The position numbers and the translations under genes are program-made. Source: a bacterium (GTDB lineage Bacteria; Armatimonadota; Zipacnadia; Zipacnadales; Zipacnadaceae). Taken from it: DNA of 64,000 bases. The stretch spans positions 1-64,000 of the forward strand of contig JAUWYY010000009.1 of the NCBI GenBank assembly GCA_030615605.1, in the 5' to 3' direction. The notes under the pieces are model-generated. The model ran no database searches. It worked only from the letters and a program-made list of their open reading frames with translations, and was not told the DNA's origin. Positions 11,788-63,514 of the stretch are shown piece by piece. Positions within the stretch are counted from its first letter, which is position 1; each line of letters begins with the position of its first letter.

Positions 11788-12471
11788 ATGCGTACTGCGA
11801 CAGTTGTTGGATTGCTTGTGTTGCTCGTCTTGGCAGTTAGCGCGGCGGGGGCGGAGCAACCTGAGGAGTGTGTTCTCTACGGCAGCTACGAGGACATACC
11901 CTTGGTAGGCTGGTGGCCGGCGGATGCTAGCGGGATGATCGGAGTAGGTGGGGTCGAGTTCTTCGTGATACCGGGCAACGGTGGCGGGCTCACTCTACCG
12001 GTTCGTGCGGAGATTGTTGATTCTCGCATCACCGAGATTCTCTCTGAGGGCATCAGCGGCCCGGTCCGCGTCGGTGACGTCCGCGGCCAGCCCACTATCT
12101 ATGTCGGGCTATATCGGTTGATTACGGTTTATGACATAGATGCAGTAAATGCTGGAGCCATCTCAGCTCAGGTCTTAGCTGAGAAGTGGGCCCAATCGGT
12201 GGCCGCAGCCCTGCCCCAGGTCCTGCCCAGTCCCTATGCTGCTGCTCAGCCAGTGAGCAGGGTGTCGCGGTTGCACTTCCAGCCCAGCGGTGGTGGCTTC
12301 AGCGTTCACCCCGTGCGCAGGATGTCGACGCGGTTGCACTTCCAGCCCAGCGGTGGTGGCTTCAGTCTTCACCCCGTGCGCAGGATGTCGACGCGGTTGC
12401 CCTTCCAGCCCAGCGGTGGTGGCTTCAGTCTTCACCCCGTGCGCAGGGTGTCGCGCGGCGTGGAGAAATAG
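11788..12471 (+). CDS. Secreted protein with a three-fold 21-residue C-terminal repeat
   Basis: 227 residues from ATG 11788 (AAGGAGGG upstream), with a signal peptide ending near AGA. The middle segment (VLAEKWAQSVAAALPQVLPSPY) resembles a segment in the larger secreted protein at 28189 (LAQQWAENLRRVFASPYL), suggesting a shared domain. The C terminus is three near-identical 21-residue units containing LHFQPSGGGFSVHPVRR. The units are encoded by exact 63-bp DNA repeats, so they arose by recent duplication. No function is recognised. Confidence 0.7.
   Translation: MRTATVVGLLVLLVLAVSAAGAEQPEECVLYGSYEDIPLVGWWPADASGMIGVGGVEFFVIPGNGGGLTLPVRAEIVDSRITEILSEGISGPVRVGDVRGQPTIYVGLYRLITVYDIDAVNAGAISAQVLAEKWAQSVAAALPQVLPSPYAAAQPVSRVSRLHFQPSGGGFSVHPVRRMSTRLHFQPSGGGFSLHPVRRMSTRLPFQPSGGGFSLHPVRRVSRGVEK
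12268..12456 (+). repeat. Three tandem 63-bp repeats in frame
   Basis: Units at 12268-12330, 12331-12393 and 12394-12456 differ by only a few bases (for example AGCGTT/AGTCTT and CACTTC/CCCTTC). As 63 is a multiple of three, gain or loss of a unit keeps the frame. It is the kind of repeat that changes copy number by slippage. Confidence 0.9.
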
Positions 12472-13530: not shown

Positions 13531-13633
13531 AAGTTTTTGCCGGCTTGTCCGCCGTAGCTGCACTTGTGCAGCGTAGGCGGGAAAGGTGCGGGAAACCGGC
13601 TTTTTTCAAAAAGCGGGTTTTCCGCAAAATCCG
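13531..13633 (+). repeat. Palindromic host element, copy 1 (left site filled)
   Basis: It starts AAGTTTTTGCCGG and ends at CCGCAAAATCCG. The right part forms a hairpin with stem GCGGAAAACC/GGTTTTCCGC and inner stem GCTTTTT/AAAAAGC. A 38-bp insert with a TCCGCCGTAGC...GCGTAGGCGG module fills the left internal site (13548-13580). It lies between thiL and lipA; the lipA ATG begins 3 nt after the right edge. Confidence 0.9.
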
Positions 13634-13636
13634 TTT

Positions 13637-14545
13637 ATGACTGATCATCTTATGTCGTCAACAAGCGAGCCGATGGTAGAAGATGCCGGACCTCTGCCGC
13701 CGTGGCTGCGAGTTAAGATAAAGAAGGCTGCGCTTACCGAACAGACCGGCCGGCGGCTGGGCTGTCATGGCGTGGCTACTGTCTGCGAGCGGGCTCATTG
13801 TCCCAACATCGGCGAGTGCTACAGTCGTGGTACCGCCACTTTTCTGATAATGGGCACGGTCTGCACGCGTAACTGCCGCTTTTGTGCGATTGACAGCGGC
13901 CGGCCCGAGCCGCTGGACCCCGACGAGCCCCAGCGCGTCGCCGAGGCCGTCGCTGACCTGGGTCTGGATTTCGTCGTGGTCACCTCGGTGACCCGTGATG
14001 ACCTCCCTGACGGCGGCGCCGGTCACTTTGCAGCGACCATCCGCGCAATTCGCGGCCGTCTGCCGGAAGCTGGTATCGAGGTGCTAACCCCCGACTTCAG
14101 CGGCGACACATCTGCACTCAGGCAGGTGCTGGAGGCAAAGCCGACTGTCTTCAATCACAACGTTGAGACCGTGCCTCGCCTCCAGCCTGAAATCCGCCCG
14201 CAGGCTGACTATGATCGCTCGTTGGGTATGCTGGCTGCCGCTCACCAGATCGCTCCCCCCATTCCGACCAAGTCGGGGCTTATCGTTGGGATGGGGGAGA
14301 CCGCCGACGAGACTCGCCAGACGATGACGGACCTGGCTGGTGCCGGCGTCAGCATATTGACCATCGGCCAGTATCTGCAGCCCACCCGCCGCCACCGCCC
14401 GGTCAGCCGCTACGTTCCTCCCGATGAGTTCGCCCTCTACGAGCAATGGGGTCGCCAGACGGGCTTGGCCTACGTGCTATCCGGCCCCTTCGTGCGCAGC
14501 AGTTACCATGCGGCGGAGGCCGCGCAGGCAGTTTTGGCGAAATAG
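13637..14545 (+). CDS. lipA: Lipoyl synthase
   Basis: A radical SAM enzyme that inserts two sulfurs into octanoyl groups to make lipoate. Both cluster motifs are present: CERAHCPNIGEC for the auxiliary 4Fe-4S cluster and CTRNCRFC for the radical SAM cluster. The C-terminal RSSYHA motif supplies the serine ligand. From ATG 13637 it has 302 residues. Later ATGs (13652, 13673) are also possible, and no start has a strong ribosome binding site. The upstream frame runs into the palindromic host element, so the element's right edge (TTTATGA) seems to have become the start region. Confidence 0.95.
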   Translation: MTDHLMSSTSEPMVEDAGPLPPWLRVKIKKAALTEQTGRRLGCHGVATVCERAHCPNIGECYSRGTATFLIMGTVCTRNCRFCAIDSGRPEPLDPDEPQRVAEAVADLGLDFVVVTSVTRDDLPDGGAGHFAATIRAIRGRLPEAGIEVLTPDFSGDTSALRQVLEAKPTVFNHNVETVPRLQPEIRPQADYDRSLGMLAAAHQIAPPIPTKSGLIVGMGETADETRQTMTDLAGAGVSILTIGQYLQPTRRHRPVSRYVPPDEFALYEQWGRQTGLAYVLSGPFVRSSYHAAEAAQAVLAK

Positions 14546-27270: not shown

Positions 27271-27335
27271 AAGTTTTTGCCGGAAAGGCGCGGAAAACCG
27301 GCTTTTTTCAAAAAGCGGGTTTTCCGCAAAATCCG
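27271..27335 (+). repeat. Palindromic host element, copy 2 (both sites empty)
   Basis: The 65-bp form, AAGTTTTTGCCGG directly joined to AAAGGCGCGG and then the hairpin GCGGAAAACC...GGTTTTCCGC and CAAAATCCG. Neither internal site is filled. It lies between lpxD and the kinase gene that starts 25 nt beyond the right edge. Confidence 0.9.
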
Positions 27336-27359
27336 TATATGAATCTTGTAGGCTAAGCA

Positions 27360-31133: not shown

Positions 31134-31236
31134 AAGTTTTTGCCGGCCTGTCCGCCGTAGCTGCACTTGTGCAGCGTAGGCGGGAAAGGTGCGGAAAACC
31201 GGCTTTTTTCAAAAAGCGGGTTTTCCGCAAAATCCG
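31134..31236 (+). repeat. Palindromic host element, copy 3 (left site filled)
   Basis: Same as copy 1: AAGTTTTTGCCGG, insert with TCCGCCGTAGCTGC...GCAGCGTAGGCGG (31151-31183), the GCGGAAAACC hairpin, and CAAAATCCG. It lies between the divergent FecR and CHASE2 genes, ending 35 nt before the latter. The rest of the 30959-31271 gap holds a GC-rich inverted repeat near 30970-30986 (CCCCCGGCGGGGGG) in the FecR leader. Confidence 0.9.
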
Positions 31237-31271
31237 TTGATGACTAGTCTAGGACGGAGGAGACCGCGATA

Positions 31272-47856: not shown

Positions 47857-48753
47857 CTATTGCAGATAAGACTTCACATACTCCGCCACTGCCTTCTGCC
47901 ATGGGCGCAGCGGAGCGTGGCCCAGCGCTGCCCACCGCCGGTTTTCCAGCACCGAGAACGCCGGCCGCCGGGTGGGGCTGTCCCAGTCGGCGCCGGAAAT
48001 CTCAGTGATTGGTACACCGCTCAAGCCGGCGACGTCCAGTGCCGCTCGCGCCAGCTCCGCCCGCGAGCAGTAGCCGCTGTTGGTTAGATGAATAATGCCG
48101 CTGATTGGCTCCGCCACCAGTTCCCACAGTGCCCCGGCCATGTCCCGAGTGTAGGTCGGCGAGCCAATCTCGTCAACTACCCCCCCCACCTCGCCCCCGT
48201 GGCGAGCGTGGTCAATGATGGCCGCGACAAAATTGCGTCCTCCTGGCCCGAACATCCACTGCGTCCGCACGATCAGACAGTCGGCGGCAATCTGCTGCGC
48301 TGCTCGTTCACCCGCCAGCTTCGAGCGTCCGTAGGCGTTTATGGGATTGGGCGCATCCTCTTCGCTGTACGGGCTGCCCCTGGTCCCGTCGAAGACGTAG
48401 TCAGTGCTGATATAGATCAGCTTGGCGCCGCGCTCGGCACAAAAGACGGCCACCTTTTCGGTCGCCAGCGCATTATGTCGCTGCGCCAGTTCCGGCTCGC
48501 TGGTGGCACCGTCCACATCGGTATACCCGGCACAGTGAATTACTACATCAGGCTGGTCTCGTCCGCCGTAGCTGCGTTCGTGCAGCGAAGGAGGATATGG
48601 CCCCAGGGCACCGTCAATACCCTCGTCGGTACTCAGATCACCGTCAGCAATATCCACGCCAACCGTGCGTACTGCCGCCGGCGCCAGCTTCATCAGCGCC
48701 GACCCCAGCATCCCTGCTGCGCCGGTGATGACCGCTGTCTGTTGACCGCTCAT
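47857..48753 (-). CDS. rfbD: dTDP-4-dehydrorhamnose reductase with an in-frame palindromic insert
   Basis: It makes dTDP-L-rhamnose for surface polysaccharides. 298 residues from ATG 48753. The NAD(P) motif GAAGMLGSAL, STDYVFDGTRGSPYSEEDAPNP, and the YGRSK active site are intact. Between GALGP and PDVVIHCAGYTDVDGA the protein carries an extra stretch YPPSLHERSYGGRDQ, encoded by a copy of the dispersed TCCGCCGTAGC palindromic module (48562-48595). Its start overlaps the stop of the preceding gene (48750). Other rfb genes are not nearby. Confidence 0.9.
   Translation of the reverse strand: MSGQQTAVITGAAGMLGSALMKLAPAAVRTVGVDIADGDLSTDEGIDGALGPYPPSLHERSYGGRDQPDVVIHCAGYTDVDGATSEPELAQRHNALATEKVAVFCAERGAKLIYISTDYVFDGTRGSPYSEEDAPNPINAYGRSKLAGERAAQQIAADCLIVRTQWMFGPGGRNFVAAIIDHARHGGEVGGVVDEIGSPTYTRDMAGALWELVAEPISGIIHLTNSGYCSRAELARAALDVAGLSGVPITEISGADWDSPTRRPAFSVLENRRWAALGHAPLRPWQKAVAEYVKSYLQ
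48562..48595 (-). repeat. Palindromic module inside rfbD
   Basis: The plus strand reads TCCGCCGTAGCTGC, GTTCGT, GCAGCGAAGGAGGA: the same module as in the host-element copies 1, 3 and 6, with arms GCTGC/GCAGC. It is read through by the rfbD frame as about 11 residues (in YPPSLHERSYGGRD). The length difference is a multiple of three or was compensated, so the reading frame is preserved. Confidence 0.85.
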
Positions 48754-50497: not shown

Positions 50498-50524
50498 TAT
50501 CGTACCCTCCGTGAAGTTTCTCTG

Positions 50525-50581
50525 TCCGCCGTAGCTTCCTTGTCCGCCATAGCCTTGGCGAAGGCGGATGGCGAAGGCGGA
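50525..50581. repeat. Self-nested palindromic module
   Basis: An outer module TCCGCCGTAGCTTCCT ... GGCGAAGGCGGA contains a complete inner module TCCGCCATAGCCTTGGCGAAGGCGGA-type at 50543-50568. The inner copy sits in the loop of the outer, showing insertion of one module into another. It lies upstream of the Gfo/Idh gene in the 50498-50801 gap. Confidence 0.85.
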
Positions 50582-50801
50582 TCCTACCGAGGCAATGGTT
50601 TCCTCGTCAGCTTGATACTTACCTCCCTGGCCATCGTGGTTATTCAAGTTTGCCGCCCCCGCGGCCAATATCACTAACGACAAACGCATCGATGCACAAG
50701 CCATGCTGGCGAGGGAGCCAAATACAGTGAATCCAACAATCGGTTGGCCGGACGACTCTAACGGGTCACACTCCCGGTGTAGCGACGGGCTTGGTGGCGT
50801 C

Positions 50802-51453: not shown

Positions 51454-54270
51454 GTGCGAAGAATGCCTGAGTTGATCTCTGTTAAGAATAATGGTAATCG
51501 CCAACGGACTGTTTTTGTCTTTGCATCTTTGGCGATTGCGCTTGTGGCTGCTGTATTGTGTCTCGGTAGTTTCAAAGTGAGGGAATTCGAGCAAACGGTT
51601 ATTTCCGATACCCAGAAGCACCTATTGACGATCGCCAGGACACAAGCCGAGCACATTGAAGAGCTCATCTGTGAAACACAATGTGACCTGGAAGCTTTGG
51701 CCGCCAATCCCATTATCAAGAACAGAATCAGAAACAATGTCAGGGGAAGTGAGATTGCTGAGGGCGACTATCGTCCGTTTCAGCATATGTTCCTTGAAGA
51801 GCGCCATATTGCTGCTGCGCTTTACAGAATCGATTCAACAGGCATAGTACAAGCAAGAGTACCCCCGGCGGAAGGGCGCGAGGGCCGCGATTATTCAAAC
51901 AAGCCCGGGGTGAAGTTCGTCCTGGAGAACCATACGAAACGTGGGGAGCATTCAGAAGAATCCTATGAGCATGTCAGTGAACTGCTCACAACAGCTTCCG
52001 GGGCATATGCCATCGCTGTTTGCGTACCTGTTTTTGAAAAAGAGGAGTTTATCGGTGTACTGCGTGCCTTGATCTATGCAGATCAACTTGGCGATATCAT
52101 CGGCGGTATCGAAGCAGGTGAGAAAGGCTATGGTTGGCTAATAGATGATGATGGGCAAGTATTGTCTCATCCTGATGCCGAGCAAATTGGCGCAGATTTC
52201 ATGACAATCAGGCGGGAAAAGTTGCCCGGCGCTGATTGGTCGGAGCTGGAAGATGTTACTGCAAGAATGCGTGACGGCGAAGAAGGGGTGGCCTTATATC
52301 ATTCCGCATGGTGGGCAGAGCCTAATCCCAGAATGGTGAAGAAAATAGTTGCGTTTGCCCCGATTGAAATCGGCAATGAACAGTGGTCCATCGCTGTGAC
52401 CATGGGTTACGATGAAATTGCCGGACCGATCACCAGGTACGCCAGGAATACCCTCATTCTGGGGGGATTATTGATCCTAATCTTCCTGGCGGGCGGCACA
52501 GCGCTCTATCGAGTTCAGAAGAAAAAGGATGAGCTTGAGATCATCGCTGCATCTGCTACGGAACTGGAAAGTGCCAATCGCAAATTGCAGACCGAAATCA
52601 CCGAACGCAAGCAGGCCGAAGAGGCCCTGCGCGAAAGCGAGGGCAAGTACAGGACACTGGTTGAGAATCTTCCCCAAAAGATATTCTTCAAGGATAGGAA
52701 TCTAGTCTATGTATCCTGTAATGAACAGTACGCTCGGGACTTGGGCCTTGCACCAGATGAAATCGCCGGACACACAGACTATGACTTCTACTCCAGGGAA
52801 TTGGCAGAGAAGTACCGAGCAGACGACGCAAGGATTATGCAGTCCGAGGAGACAGAAGACATGGAGGAGGACTACATCCAGGATGACCAAGAACTAATTG
52901 TCCACACGGTCAAGACGCCCGTCAGAGACGAAGGCGGCAAGGTTGTCGGCATACTGGGCATTTTCTGGGACATCACCGAACGCAAGCGGGCCGATGAGGC
53001 GCAGCAGGAGAGCGAAGAAAGATTCAGAACCATATTTGATAAGGCTAGGGACGGCATGCTCCTCGCCGATCCGGAAACGAAGAGATTCTACACTGGCAAT
53101 GAAATGATATGCCGTATGCTGGGCTATACTCTCGAAGAGCTCAAGAATCTGGGAGTGATGGATATCCATCGCCAGGAAGACCTCCCTTATGCTATGGGGC
53201 AGTTTGAAAAGCTATCTAGCCGAGAGATTGAGGTGGCCAAAGACATTCCGGTGAAGAGAAAGGACGGCACTGTTTTCTACGCAGATATCAGTGCCGGTCG
53301 GGTGACGTTAGGTGATGGAACATATATGTTGGGCATCTTCAGGGACATCACCGAGCGCAAGCAGGCCGAAGAAGCGCTGCAGGAGGCTTATCAGCGCAAC
53401 GAGACCGTTCTGCAGACCTCTATGGACGGCTTTATGATAATGCAGCCGGATGGCAGTATTATCGAGTGCAATGAGGCTTTCTGTGAGGTGGCGGGATATT
53501 CACAGGACGAACTGCTGGATATGAATATCGGTGCCCTGGCCGCACAGATGACCGCTGAAGATCTGGGCGAGACTATGCAGCAGGTGATGGACGCCGGCTC
53601 TCGCCGCTTTGAGACTGCTATGCGGCGCAAGGACGGCACGATAGTTGACTTGGAAGTTGCCACGACCTCCGTCGAACTGTCCGAAGACAGCTTCATTGTT
53701 AGCTTTACCCGCGACATCACCGAAACCAAGCGGCTGTGGGACGAGCTTAACCACCAACTGGTGCGCGACGCGCTCACCGGCGTCTACAACCGCCGCTACT
53801 TCAACGAAACTATCATCCAGGAGATCGGACGCGCCGACCGATACGGCCACCACGTCAGCTTCATAATGGGCGATATTGACGGCCTGAAGGCGATCAATGA
53901 TGGCTACGGGCATCTGGTTGGCGACCAGATTCTGCAGGGCGTGGCCGAGGTCCTCCAGAAGTCGGTCCGCGCGGCTGATGTTATCATCCGCTACGGCGGC
54001 GACGAGTTCCTGGTGGTAATGCCCGAGACCCGCACTGAGCAGGCCCACGCCGCTCTCGTCCGCTTCCAGGATGGCTTCAGCGAGGAGCTGGCCCAACGGG
54101 TCCAGGATGGGGCCCTATCCCCCGATCTGCCGGCGGATCTCGGCTTCAGTATGGGCGTGGCCTGCTACGAGCCGGACACCGATGTCGCCGTCGAGGAGGT
54201 CCTCGCCCAGGCCGACGCGGCCATGTATCAGGTCAAGCAGGCCAAACGCGCCAAGCGCGCCACCGCCTGA
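51454..54270 (+). CDS. Membrane sensor diguanylate cyclase (Cache-PAS3-GGDEF)
   Basis: 938 residues from GTG 51454, with GGAGGG 5 nt upstream. A first membrane helix (VFASLAIALVAAVLCLG), an extracytoplasmic Cache-type sensor of about 270 residues (TRTQAEHIEELICETQCDLEAL-like), a second helix near 340 (LILGGLLILIFLAGG), three PAS domains joined by ITERK(Q/R)A linkers, and a C-terminal GGDEF domain (GGDEF at 848-852). The inhibitory I-site RAAD sits at 838-841. The part up to about 53390 is visibly richer in A and T than the last part, which suggests a fusion of an acquired sensor with a native cyclase. Confidence 0.9.
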   Translation: MRRMPELISVKNNGNRQRTVFVFASLAIALVAAVLCLGSFKVREFEQTVISDTQKHLLTIARTQAEHIEELICETQCDLEALAANPIIKNRIRNNVRGSEIAEGDYRPFQHMFLEERHIAAALYRIDSTGIVQARVPPAEGREGRDYSNKPGVKFVLENHTKRGEHSEESYEHVSELLTTASGAYAIAVCVPVFEKEEFIGVLRALIYADQLGDIIGGIEAGEKGYGWLIDDDGQVLSHPDAEQIGADFMTIRREKLPGADWSELEDVTARMRDGEEGVALYHSAWWAEPNPRMVKKIVAFAPIEIGNEQWSIAVTMGYDEIAGPITRYARNTLILGGLLILIFLAGGTALYRVQKKKDELEIIAASATELESANRKLQTEITERKQAEEALRESEGKYRTLVENLPQKIFFKDRNLVYVSCNEQYARDLGLAPDEIAGHTDYDFYSRELAEKYRADDARIMQSEETEDMEEDYIQDDQELIVHTVKTPVRDEGGKVVGILGIFWDITERKRADEAQQESEERFRTIFDKARDGMLLADPETKRFYTGNEMICRMLGYTLEELKNLGVMDIHRQEDLPYAMGQFEKLSSREIEVAKDIPVKRKDGTVFYADISAGRVTLGDGTYMLGIFRDITERKQAEEALQEAYQRNETVLQTSMDGFMIMQPDGSIIECNEAFCEVAGYSQDELLDMNIGALAAQMTAEDLGETMQQVMDAGSRRFETAMRRKDGTIVDLEVATTSVELSEDSFIVSFTRDITETKRLWDELNHQLVRDALTGVYNRRYFNETIIQEIGRADRYGHHVSFIMGDIDGLKAINDGYGHLVGDQILQGVAEVLQKSVRAADVIIRYGGDEFLVVMPETRTEQAHAALVRFQDGFSEELAQRVQDGALSPDLPADLGFSMGVACYEPDTDVAVEEVLAQADAAMYQVKQAKRAKRATA

Positions 54271-54296
54271 CCCACCCCTCGTTACCCTTCCTCACC

Positions 54297-54350
54297 GGTA
54301 GAAGCGGCATTTCAGCCGCCGTAGCTTTAGCGAAGGCGGATACTGCCGCG
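54297..54350. repeat. Palindromic module nested in another type
   Basis: The module GGTAGAAGCGGCATTTC...CTGCCGCG (compare the intact GTAGGAGCGGCATTCCTGCCGCGA at 63439-63462) is split by a TCCGCC-type module (GCCGCCGTAGCTTTAGCGAAGGCGGA, 54315-54340). The insertion lies in the loop of the outer palindrome. The remaining part of the 54271-54654 gap holds the host element copy 4 and no gene. Confidence 0.8.
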
Positions 54351-54555
54351 TCCCCGCGTATTACCTCCATCCTCTGGGAGGTTACCGGCGCACCGCTGGC
54401 GAACTGTCCTAACAGCAGCCGTCTGTTGTTGGTGTGCCGTTGTGCCGTGGCTGTGCTGCCTCTGTGCTGTCGTCCCGGTTGGAAGAGGCGTTTTAACGCA
54501 GATTATTCAATGCCCGTGAGGGATAGCGGTATACTACGGTACTGGTCAACTTCTA

Positions 54556-56403: not shown

Positions 56404-56681
56404 TGAGCCGCGACGAGCTTATTGAAGGCATCATTATGATCCTCATCATCATCGGCTTCTGGCCGGTGGTCTTTCTGGGCTGGTTCCCTGACCTCTACAA
56501 GTACGTTTATTACGGCATCTCCGGGGTGCTGGTGATTCTCATCTTCATCCGCCGCCTCGCCCGCGTCCGCGCCGGCCTCAAGTACAGCCGCACGATGCGC
56601 GACCTCCGCGAAGAGGCCCAATCCGGCGCCCGCCCGATGCCCTTTATGCCACCCGACGAGTCAGACGAGAAATCACCGTAG
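56403..56681 (+). CDS. Small hypothetical membrane protein
   Basis: 92 residues with two hydrophobic segments (IIMILIIIGFWPVVFLGW and YYGISGVLVILIFI) and a charged C-terminal tail. It overlaps the preceding stop by one base. No function recognised. The gap downstream (56682-56845) carries another TCCGCC module at 56697-56722. Confidence 0.55.
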   Translation: MSRDELIEGIIMILIIIGFWPVVFLGWFPDLYKYVYYGISGVLVILIFIRRLARVRAGLKYSRTMRDLREEAQSGARPMPFMPPDESDEKSP

Positions 56682-56696
56682 GGGCGCTGCTCATTG

Positions 56697-56722
56697 TCCG
56701 CCATAGCCTTGGCGACGGCGGA
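56697..56722. repeat. TCCGCC-type palindromic module, solitary
   Basis: TCCGCCATAGCCTTGGCG, then ACGGCGGA: the short form of the module with the central GCCTTGGC, one base changed in the right arm. It stands alone between two membrane-protein genes. Confidence 0.8.
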
Positions 56723-56845
56723 TGCCGCGCCCTACAGAATGGCCCCCGCGGCATGGGCTTCCGGCCTGTGCGGCGTTGCGATTGACAGCAACCGGCGGTT
56801 AGGCGTAGACTGCGGGGCTAACAGAAGGGAGGTAATGGGTAAAGA

Positions 56846-62361: not shown

Positions 62362-62489
62362 AAGTTTTTGCCGGCCTGTCCGCCGTAGCTGCACTTGTGC
62401 AGCGTAGGCGGAAAATGTGTAGCCTGTGGTGAGCTTGGTCGAACCAGCAAACCGGCTTTTTTCAAAAAGCGGGTTTCCCGCAAAATCCG
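62362..62489 (+). repeat. Palindromic host element, copy 6 (both sites filled)
   Basis: The left site holds TCCGCCGTAGCTGC...GCAGCGTAGGCGGA (62379-62412) as in copies 1 and 3. The right site holds a second type (CTGTGGTGAGCTTGGTCGAA and on, 62421-62448), related to the insert in copy 5. Upstream at 62226-62242 GGATTATTCATAAACC is an imperfect reverse complement of the right edge AAAATCCGTTTATGAAT of other copies, a possible outer end. No gene lies in the 62183-62506 gap. Confidence 0.85.
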
Positions 62490-63438: not shown

Positions 63439-63514
63439 GTAGGAGCGGCATTCCTGCCGCGATTGCCCTTGCCCTGTGCCCTTCACCTGTGGGAGGGGCA
63501 CCCTTGCCCCGACC
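63439..63514. repeat. Two palindromic modules upstream of the membrane-protein gene
   Basis: GTAGGAGCGGCATTCC, TGCCGCGA (63439-63462) is the intact form of the module interrupted at 54297-54350. The 29-bp module at 63486-63514 is the exact reverse complement of 58520-58548. Confidence 0.8.

Follow-up and report, generated by a model that had tools for sequence, protein, structure and literature searches.

The nearest known relatives of the hairpin module that we describe here are REP elements and their RAYT enzymes, not the RPEs of Rickettsia. REPs of the GTAG and CGTC types have been reported within ORFs of many species, and recB of two Xanthomonas species harbours different REPs at roughly one position (Di Nocera et al. 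2013, PMC3733652), while cutting and joining of REPs by a RAYT has been published for E. coli (Quentin et al. 2018, PMC6006769). As protein-coding REPs are thus already described (PMC3733652), the rfbD case below is a variant of a known phenomenon. Like our module, Rickettsia RPEs are palindromes of non-coding and coding DNA that sit in frame and seem to preserve the host protein, but the module lives in another host phylum, is shorter than RPE-1 and is tied to GTAG REPs and RAYTs. MITEs of DDE transposons share with it that they are short, non-autonomous and palindromic; it differs from them in that no target-site duplication is seen, either at rfbD (joined flanks against empty sites) or at the intergenic host A element (empty against filled copies). 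An earlier note on this DNA had likened the rfbD insert to RPEs and held such insertions to be rare elsewhere. The likeness in effect, a palindrome coding in frame, stands; the rarity does not, in view of the published ORF-borne REPs (PMC3733652) and the Armatimonadota and Levybacteria copies reported below.

The window, the whole stretch of 64,000 nucleotides that was analysed, belongs to genome G000 of Candidatus Zipacnadia (Armatimonadota), a 2.89-Mb assembly that is 93% complete; all assemblies used are metagenome bins. G000, its sister species G005, G001 and G004 form one genus, and g2, g3 and g4 are other genera; the two whose rfbD sites are empty, g2 and g4, are of the same family. The features of rfbD and its insert are these (stems read from the fold of the 39 nt and from pair counts in 20 long copies):

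47860 to 48753, minus strand: rfbD (dTDP-4-dehydrorhamnose reductase), 298 aa, intact, stop codon at 47857-47859
48558 to 48596, module orientation plus: inserted palindromic unit, 39 nt or 13 codons, absent from G005, G004 and the other aligned orthologues
48562 to 48567, plus strand: left arm of the outer stem, TCCGCC, pairing with 48590-48595
48571 to 48586, plus strand: inner stem-loop, GCTGC-GTTCGT-GCAGC
48590 to 48595, plus strand: right arm of the outer stem, GGAGGA

The rfbD product matches TIGR01214 with 263.5 bits (cut-off 224, E=1.9e-78) and PF04321 with E=2.8e-76, and its synteny with ahcY is kept in G005, G001, G004 and G011. Every residue that is invariant over a 40-sequence alignment is present, and G11, G14, G17, S116, T117, D118, Y141 and K145 are conserved, which covers the Rossmann GxxGxxG and catalytic S/T-D-Y-K motifs that define RmlD/RfbD, so that the view that frame and active-site motifs are preserved holds good. 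Within the protein, the insertion point lies in what we take to be the loop preceding beta-4 of the Rossmann fold, and an alignment with 3sc6 places no residues there.

Two comparisons on the plus strand tie this insert to the intergenic module: the 33-mer TCCGCCGTAGCTGCGTTCGTGCAGCGAAGGAGG at 48562-48594 has one mismatch to the G000 intergenic module consensus (27 specified positions), and TCCGCCGTAGCTGCGTTCGTGCAGCGAAGGAGGA is 84% identical over 37 nt to the intergenic modules at 13544, 31147 and 62375. Reversed-pattern controls of the long-module search gave 0 matches in 15 genomes of the family, and window shuffles gave 0 expected copies of the intergenic module. Since the module is, moreover, translated on the minus strand within YPPSLHERSYGGRDQ, flanked by ALGP and PDVVIHCAGYTDVDGA, the earlier note was right that the module filling the intergenic hosts also lies in frame inside rfbD. 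Over 85 module copies the consensus opens with YTYG ahead of TCCGCC and closes with (A/G)T behind GGCGG, which sets the rfbD unit at 48558-48596 (CTCG...AT), exactly the 13 codons missing from relatives; on the minus strand the unit reads [Y]PPSLHERSYGGR[D].

That these codons are a true insertion follows from the RfbD proteins of 30 relatives. Upon alignment, ALGP joins xxPDVVIHC directly in G005 (82-83% identity), in G004, in genera g2 and g4 and in the other order-level orthologues aligned, with 13 extra codons in G000 and G001. Once the unit is removed, GGGCCAT/ACCAGCCT in G000 and GGGCCGC/ATAAGCCG in G001 (slashes mark the junction) match GGGCCCTACATCCCT of G004 in length and reading, the rejoined flanks giving GPYQP and GPHKP against GPYIP. 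Such an alignment had been suggested as a check on the insertion, and in it the extra residues prove absent from sister species and others instead of being a shared part of RfbD. The module thus has what marks a protein-coding palindromic repeat, namely intergenic copies together with in-frame copies in genes whose relatives are empty. Translated by eye, it has a stop in one of its six frames and is open in five and, as the unit is also a multiple of three, the rfbD reading frame survived with 13 residues added.

As a hairpin, the rfbD unit is imperfect, its outer stem containing one G.A mismatch. Folded by itself as either RNA strand, the 39-nt unit outperforms its shuffles (z about -2.5); in a 76-nt mRNA context the unit shows no excess folding (z +0.8). 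Across modules, compensatory changes maintain the hairpin: double-change cells number 18 against 7.3 in shuffles for the short form and 8 against 2.3 for the long form, values reached in 0 of 500 shuffles in either case, and 94% and 95% of cells are paired in the two forms.

In G000 the intergenic module resides in REP hosts. Host A, AAAGTTTTTGCCGG/AAAGGTGCGGAAAACCGGC..., is met with vacant as well as filled, the filling being a 38-nt unit that always enters at one point (slash); the vacant copies include those at 27273 and 54558, and G000 has others. A census by pattern search gave the following elements in the window:

13533 to 13642, plus strand: host A filled with a long module (module at 13548-13580)
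27273 to 27344, plus strand: host A, empty, without module, GCCGG/AAAGGTGCGG
31136 to 31245, plus strand: host A filled with a long module
50519 to 50583, plus strand: cluster of short-module copies upstream of a Gfo/Idh/MocA-type gene
54298 to 54352, plus strand: host C, a GTAG-type REP, with a short module in its loop
54558 to 54629, plus strand: host A, empty
56678 to 56742, plus strand: host B, a GTAGGGGCGC... REP, with a short module in its loop
58599 to 58706, plus strand: host A filled with a short module and a TGAGC-type (module 2-like) tract
62364 to 62483, plus strand: host A filled with a long module and a module 2-type tract, GTGGTGAGCTTGGTCGAACCA
63439 to 63464, plus strand: host C, canonical empty GTAG REP, GTAGGAGCGGCATTCCTGCCGCGA, in the format of PMC2817692 Table 1 and PMC3733652 Table 1

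Many long open frames run across the intergenic modules; these look spurious and were excluded from gene counts. On the G000 contig that includes the window (C23), 15 of 15 host A copies point in the same direction and their neighbouring genes do not, and on contig C53 all four host A elements are oriented opposite to those on C23. Orientations were read from the left arm of host A; the module core is palindromic and matches both strands. The uniform direction suggests a link to the direction of replication and is as expected for a strand-specific process.

Host C is a GTAG REP by definition, having a GTAG tag, a GW dinucleotide, a GC-rich stem-loop (fold z -3.1) and a 3-nt tail (GTAG-GA-GCGGCA-TTCC-TGCCGC-GAC/GAT at 63439); its layout, GTAG-GA-GCGGCATTCCTGCCGC-GAC, is the GTAG-1 format of the published elements (PMC3733652; Nunvar et al. 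2010, PMC2817692; PMC6006769). The likeness extends to the published occurrence inside ORFs and, in relatives though not in G000, where no Y1 gene was detected, to RAYT-like genes flanked by such REPs. The module, on the other hand, is a separate hairpin nested in REP loops that can also stand by itself, in genes and in T-box leaders, and its phyla are not those of the published REPs. It does not end in an unpaired GTAG, as a GTAG REP would: TCCGCC lies 5' of the module GTAG and pairs with GGCGGA, and the inner stem has the G of GTAG among its paired bases. With its GTAG enclosed in the hairpin by the outer stem, we class the module as a REP companion and not as a GTAG REP.

Nor is the rfbD site of G000 a one-off, as the same insert is present in G001 and a different palindrome in genus g3. 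In a maximum-likelihood tree of RfbD with inserts removed, G000 pairs with G005 (100/97) and G001 with G004 (93/93), so the insert is present in one member of each pair, discordant with the tree. Between G000 and G001, 40 nt (48557-48596) are identical, the longest such run in rfbD, where fourfold sites are 53% identical; this identity is limited to the insert plus 1 nt, and the adjoining codons on both sides differ silently. For 13 identical codons we obtain a probability of 9e-6, with codons treated as independent. One other run of at least that length, 47 nt of a folE2-like gene, occurs in the 10.1-kb syntenic G000-G001 alignment, which makes the identity unusual, yet not unique. A search of 41 genomes of the order that allowed 3 mismatches found the rfbD version in no other place, and with the same tolerance the long-module pattern has no further match in G001, so that there is no known donor; a more diverged long-module copy does sit in a host A element of G001. 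Most likely, the G000 and G001 copies are recent, as opposed to having come down in both lineages from the common ancestor. The tree discordance, the insert identity and the missing donor leave room for parallel gain, for short-tract transfer and for one gain with two precise losses.

The reading that we prefer, at a probability of roughly 70%, is that a mobile palindromic module inserted into rfbD as a 39-nt unit without target duplication, by a RAYT-type move of a single-stranded hairpin, and that the copies are recent. One alternative is a single insertion in the genus ancestor, which G000 and G001 retained, its DNA being somehow conserved, and which G005 and G004 each lost precisely. The distribution would then need one gain and two losses, no donor was found in either G000 or G001, and precise excision would pose no obstacle, Y1/HUH systems such as IS200/IS605 being capable of it. 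This would, however, require that 40 nt stayed unchanged next to silent sites near saturation and that two independent losses both restored the exact ancestral length free of scars, which makes it unlikely to our minds. A single insertion that afterwards passed from one species to another, as a very short tract that was recombined or taken up by transformation, would account for an identity restricted to the insert plus 1 nt, and local identity between G000 and G004, ranging from about 65 to 90%, suggests that these lineages exchange DNA. Yet on either side of the insert almost every silent site within a few nt is different, which leaves next to no homology for recombination, so we regard this route as doubtful.

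Spread without any enzyme, through replication slippage or template switching at hairpins with retention where harmless, may be envisaged because modules occupy the loops of other hairpins and no transposase was detected in G000. It would hardly explain why the unit ends are reproducible over unrelated hosts, genes and phyla, nor why near-identical modules in 26 of 291 Armatimonadota genomes and in a Levybacteria genome point to movement between genomes; it, too, appears improbable. As for an ordinary RfbD loop whose DNA match is ancient or due to chance, it is in its favour that the g3 species also have 13 extra residues here, but these residues belong to another repeat family (14 copies in G008, 0 in controls). 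We have rejected it as extremely improbable, the insert being missing from sister species and chance matches numbering 0 in controls.

The g3 insert bears on the nature of this site. At the same rfbD column, G011 and G008 carry a different insert, likewise of 39 nt and 13 residues, that contains TGAGCYTGTCGAA, the core of a repeat family with 14 copies in G008, 12 in G011, 37 in G010 and 20 in G001 (reversed control, 0). In G008 the rfbD copy lies at C266:3091 and shares the 22 nt GGCCGTGAGCTTGTCGAACGGC with another G008 copy, while that of G011 has diverged to TGAGCCTGCCGAA. Homology between the g3 and G000 inserts was accordingly rejected, as the former belongs to another repeat family. With one palindrome in frame, the sister species empty and an unrelated palindrome at the same codon, small mobile hairpins appear to add loops to predicted enzymes, and rfbD offers a clean before-and-after case of a hairpin repeat turned into protein sequence, complete with empty sites in sister species. 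One might go further and suppose that the codon before PDVVIHCA attracts hairpin modules, unrelated ones entering repeatedly and leaving precisely in different species, so that REP-type machinery would switch an enzyme loop between versions and the same modules would cross phyla, but this we consider a long shot.

Returning to the RAYT-type insertion that we favour, the module would jump as a 39-nt unit into loop codons just before the beta-strand PDVVIHCA, travelling as single-stranded hairpin DNA that a RAYT-type (HUH, Y1) enzyme may cut and join in trans, and would land without target duplication; the rfbD copy may persist because a putative surface loop tolerates 13 added residues. Candidate enzymes are at hand, with RAYT-like Y1 genes in 31 of 41 genomes searched. 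GTAG REPs lie directly upstream of a RAYT gene in G005, 13 kb from rfbD, and in G011 a RAYT-like gene (L126; C65, 1459-1929) lies between host REPs, of which the downstream REP has a loop with two modules. No Y1 transposase was detected in the 93% complete bin of G000, so the mover may have been lost, left unassembled or reside elsewhere. Insertion of hairpins into genes by RAYT-type enzymes thereby becomes testable.

Within one mismatch, the short module occurs in 26 of 291 Armatimonadota genomes with up to 49 copies (controls 0), and a 0.9-Mb Levybacteria (Patescibacteria) genome, G072, holds ten copies within two mismatches. In G010 the short module supplies nine in-frame codons to a glycoside-hydrolase-like gene whose paralogues and G007 orthologue lack them; G072 has it in frame in fmt, a family-2 glycosyltransferase (GT2) gene, pheT, rho and a MerR-like gene (L159, L162, L163, L168, L169); and panC of another Armatimonadota family (L213) gains about ten residues from it. 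Since panC, fmt, pheT and the glycosyltransferase gene all have it in frame, such insertions are not confined to Rickettsia, and protein-coding palindromes, best known from there and from a few REP-rich genomes, are now linked to an Armatimonadota/Levybacteria module in essential genes. The frame varies by gene (LRQGYGGQ, SAFAKATAD, SAIALAEAD), and peptides such as LRQGYGGQ or SAFAKATAD in metagenome-predicted proteins become readable as traces of the module; in the literature, where most subscription journals fell outside the search, its sequence and peptides gave only primer-like or unrelated matches.

Some minor observations may be added. A cysteine desulfurase gene (L223) and a 2-hydroxyacyl-CoA dehydratase gene (L215) of other Armatimonadota also have the module in frame, and both seem to carry several inserted tracts. 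The exact 26-nt short module is present in three IMG/VR viral contigs (L224-L227), with several copies in one. Within the window, 12266-12454 comprises three 63-nt tandem repeats in a coding-looking region, and 52606-54319 shows 85-90% local identity to G004:C20, against about 65-79% for G004 elsewhere there, possibly through recent exchange. Finally, in T-box leaders (RF00230) of genera g1 and g3 (L088, L089, L094, L099, L100, L105, L107) the short module lies beside the antiterminator GGGTGGTACC, in those of G001 and G004 as the exact 24-nt consensus, and it looks like a REP module recruited as a riboswitch stem.
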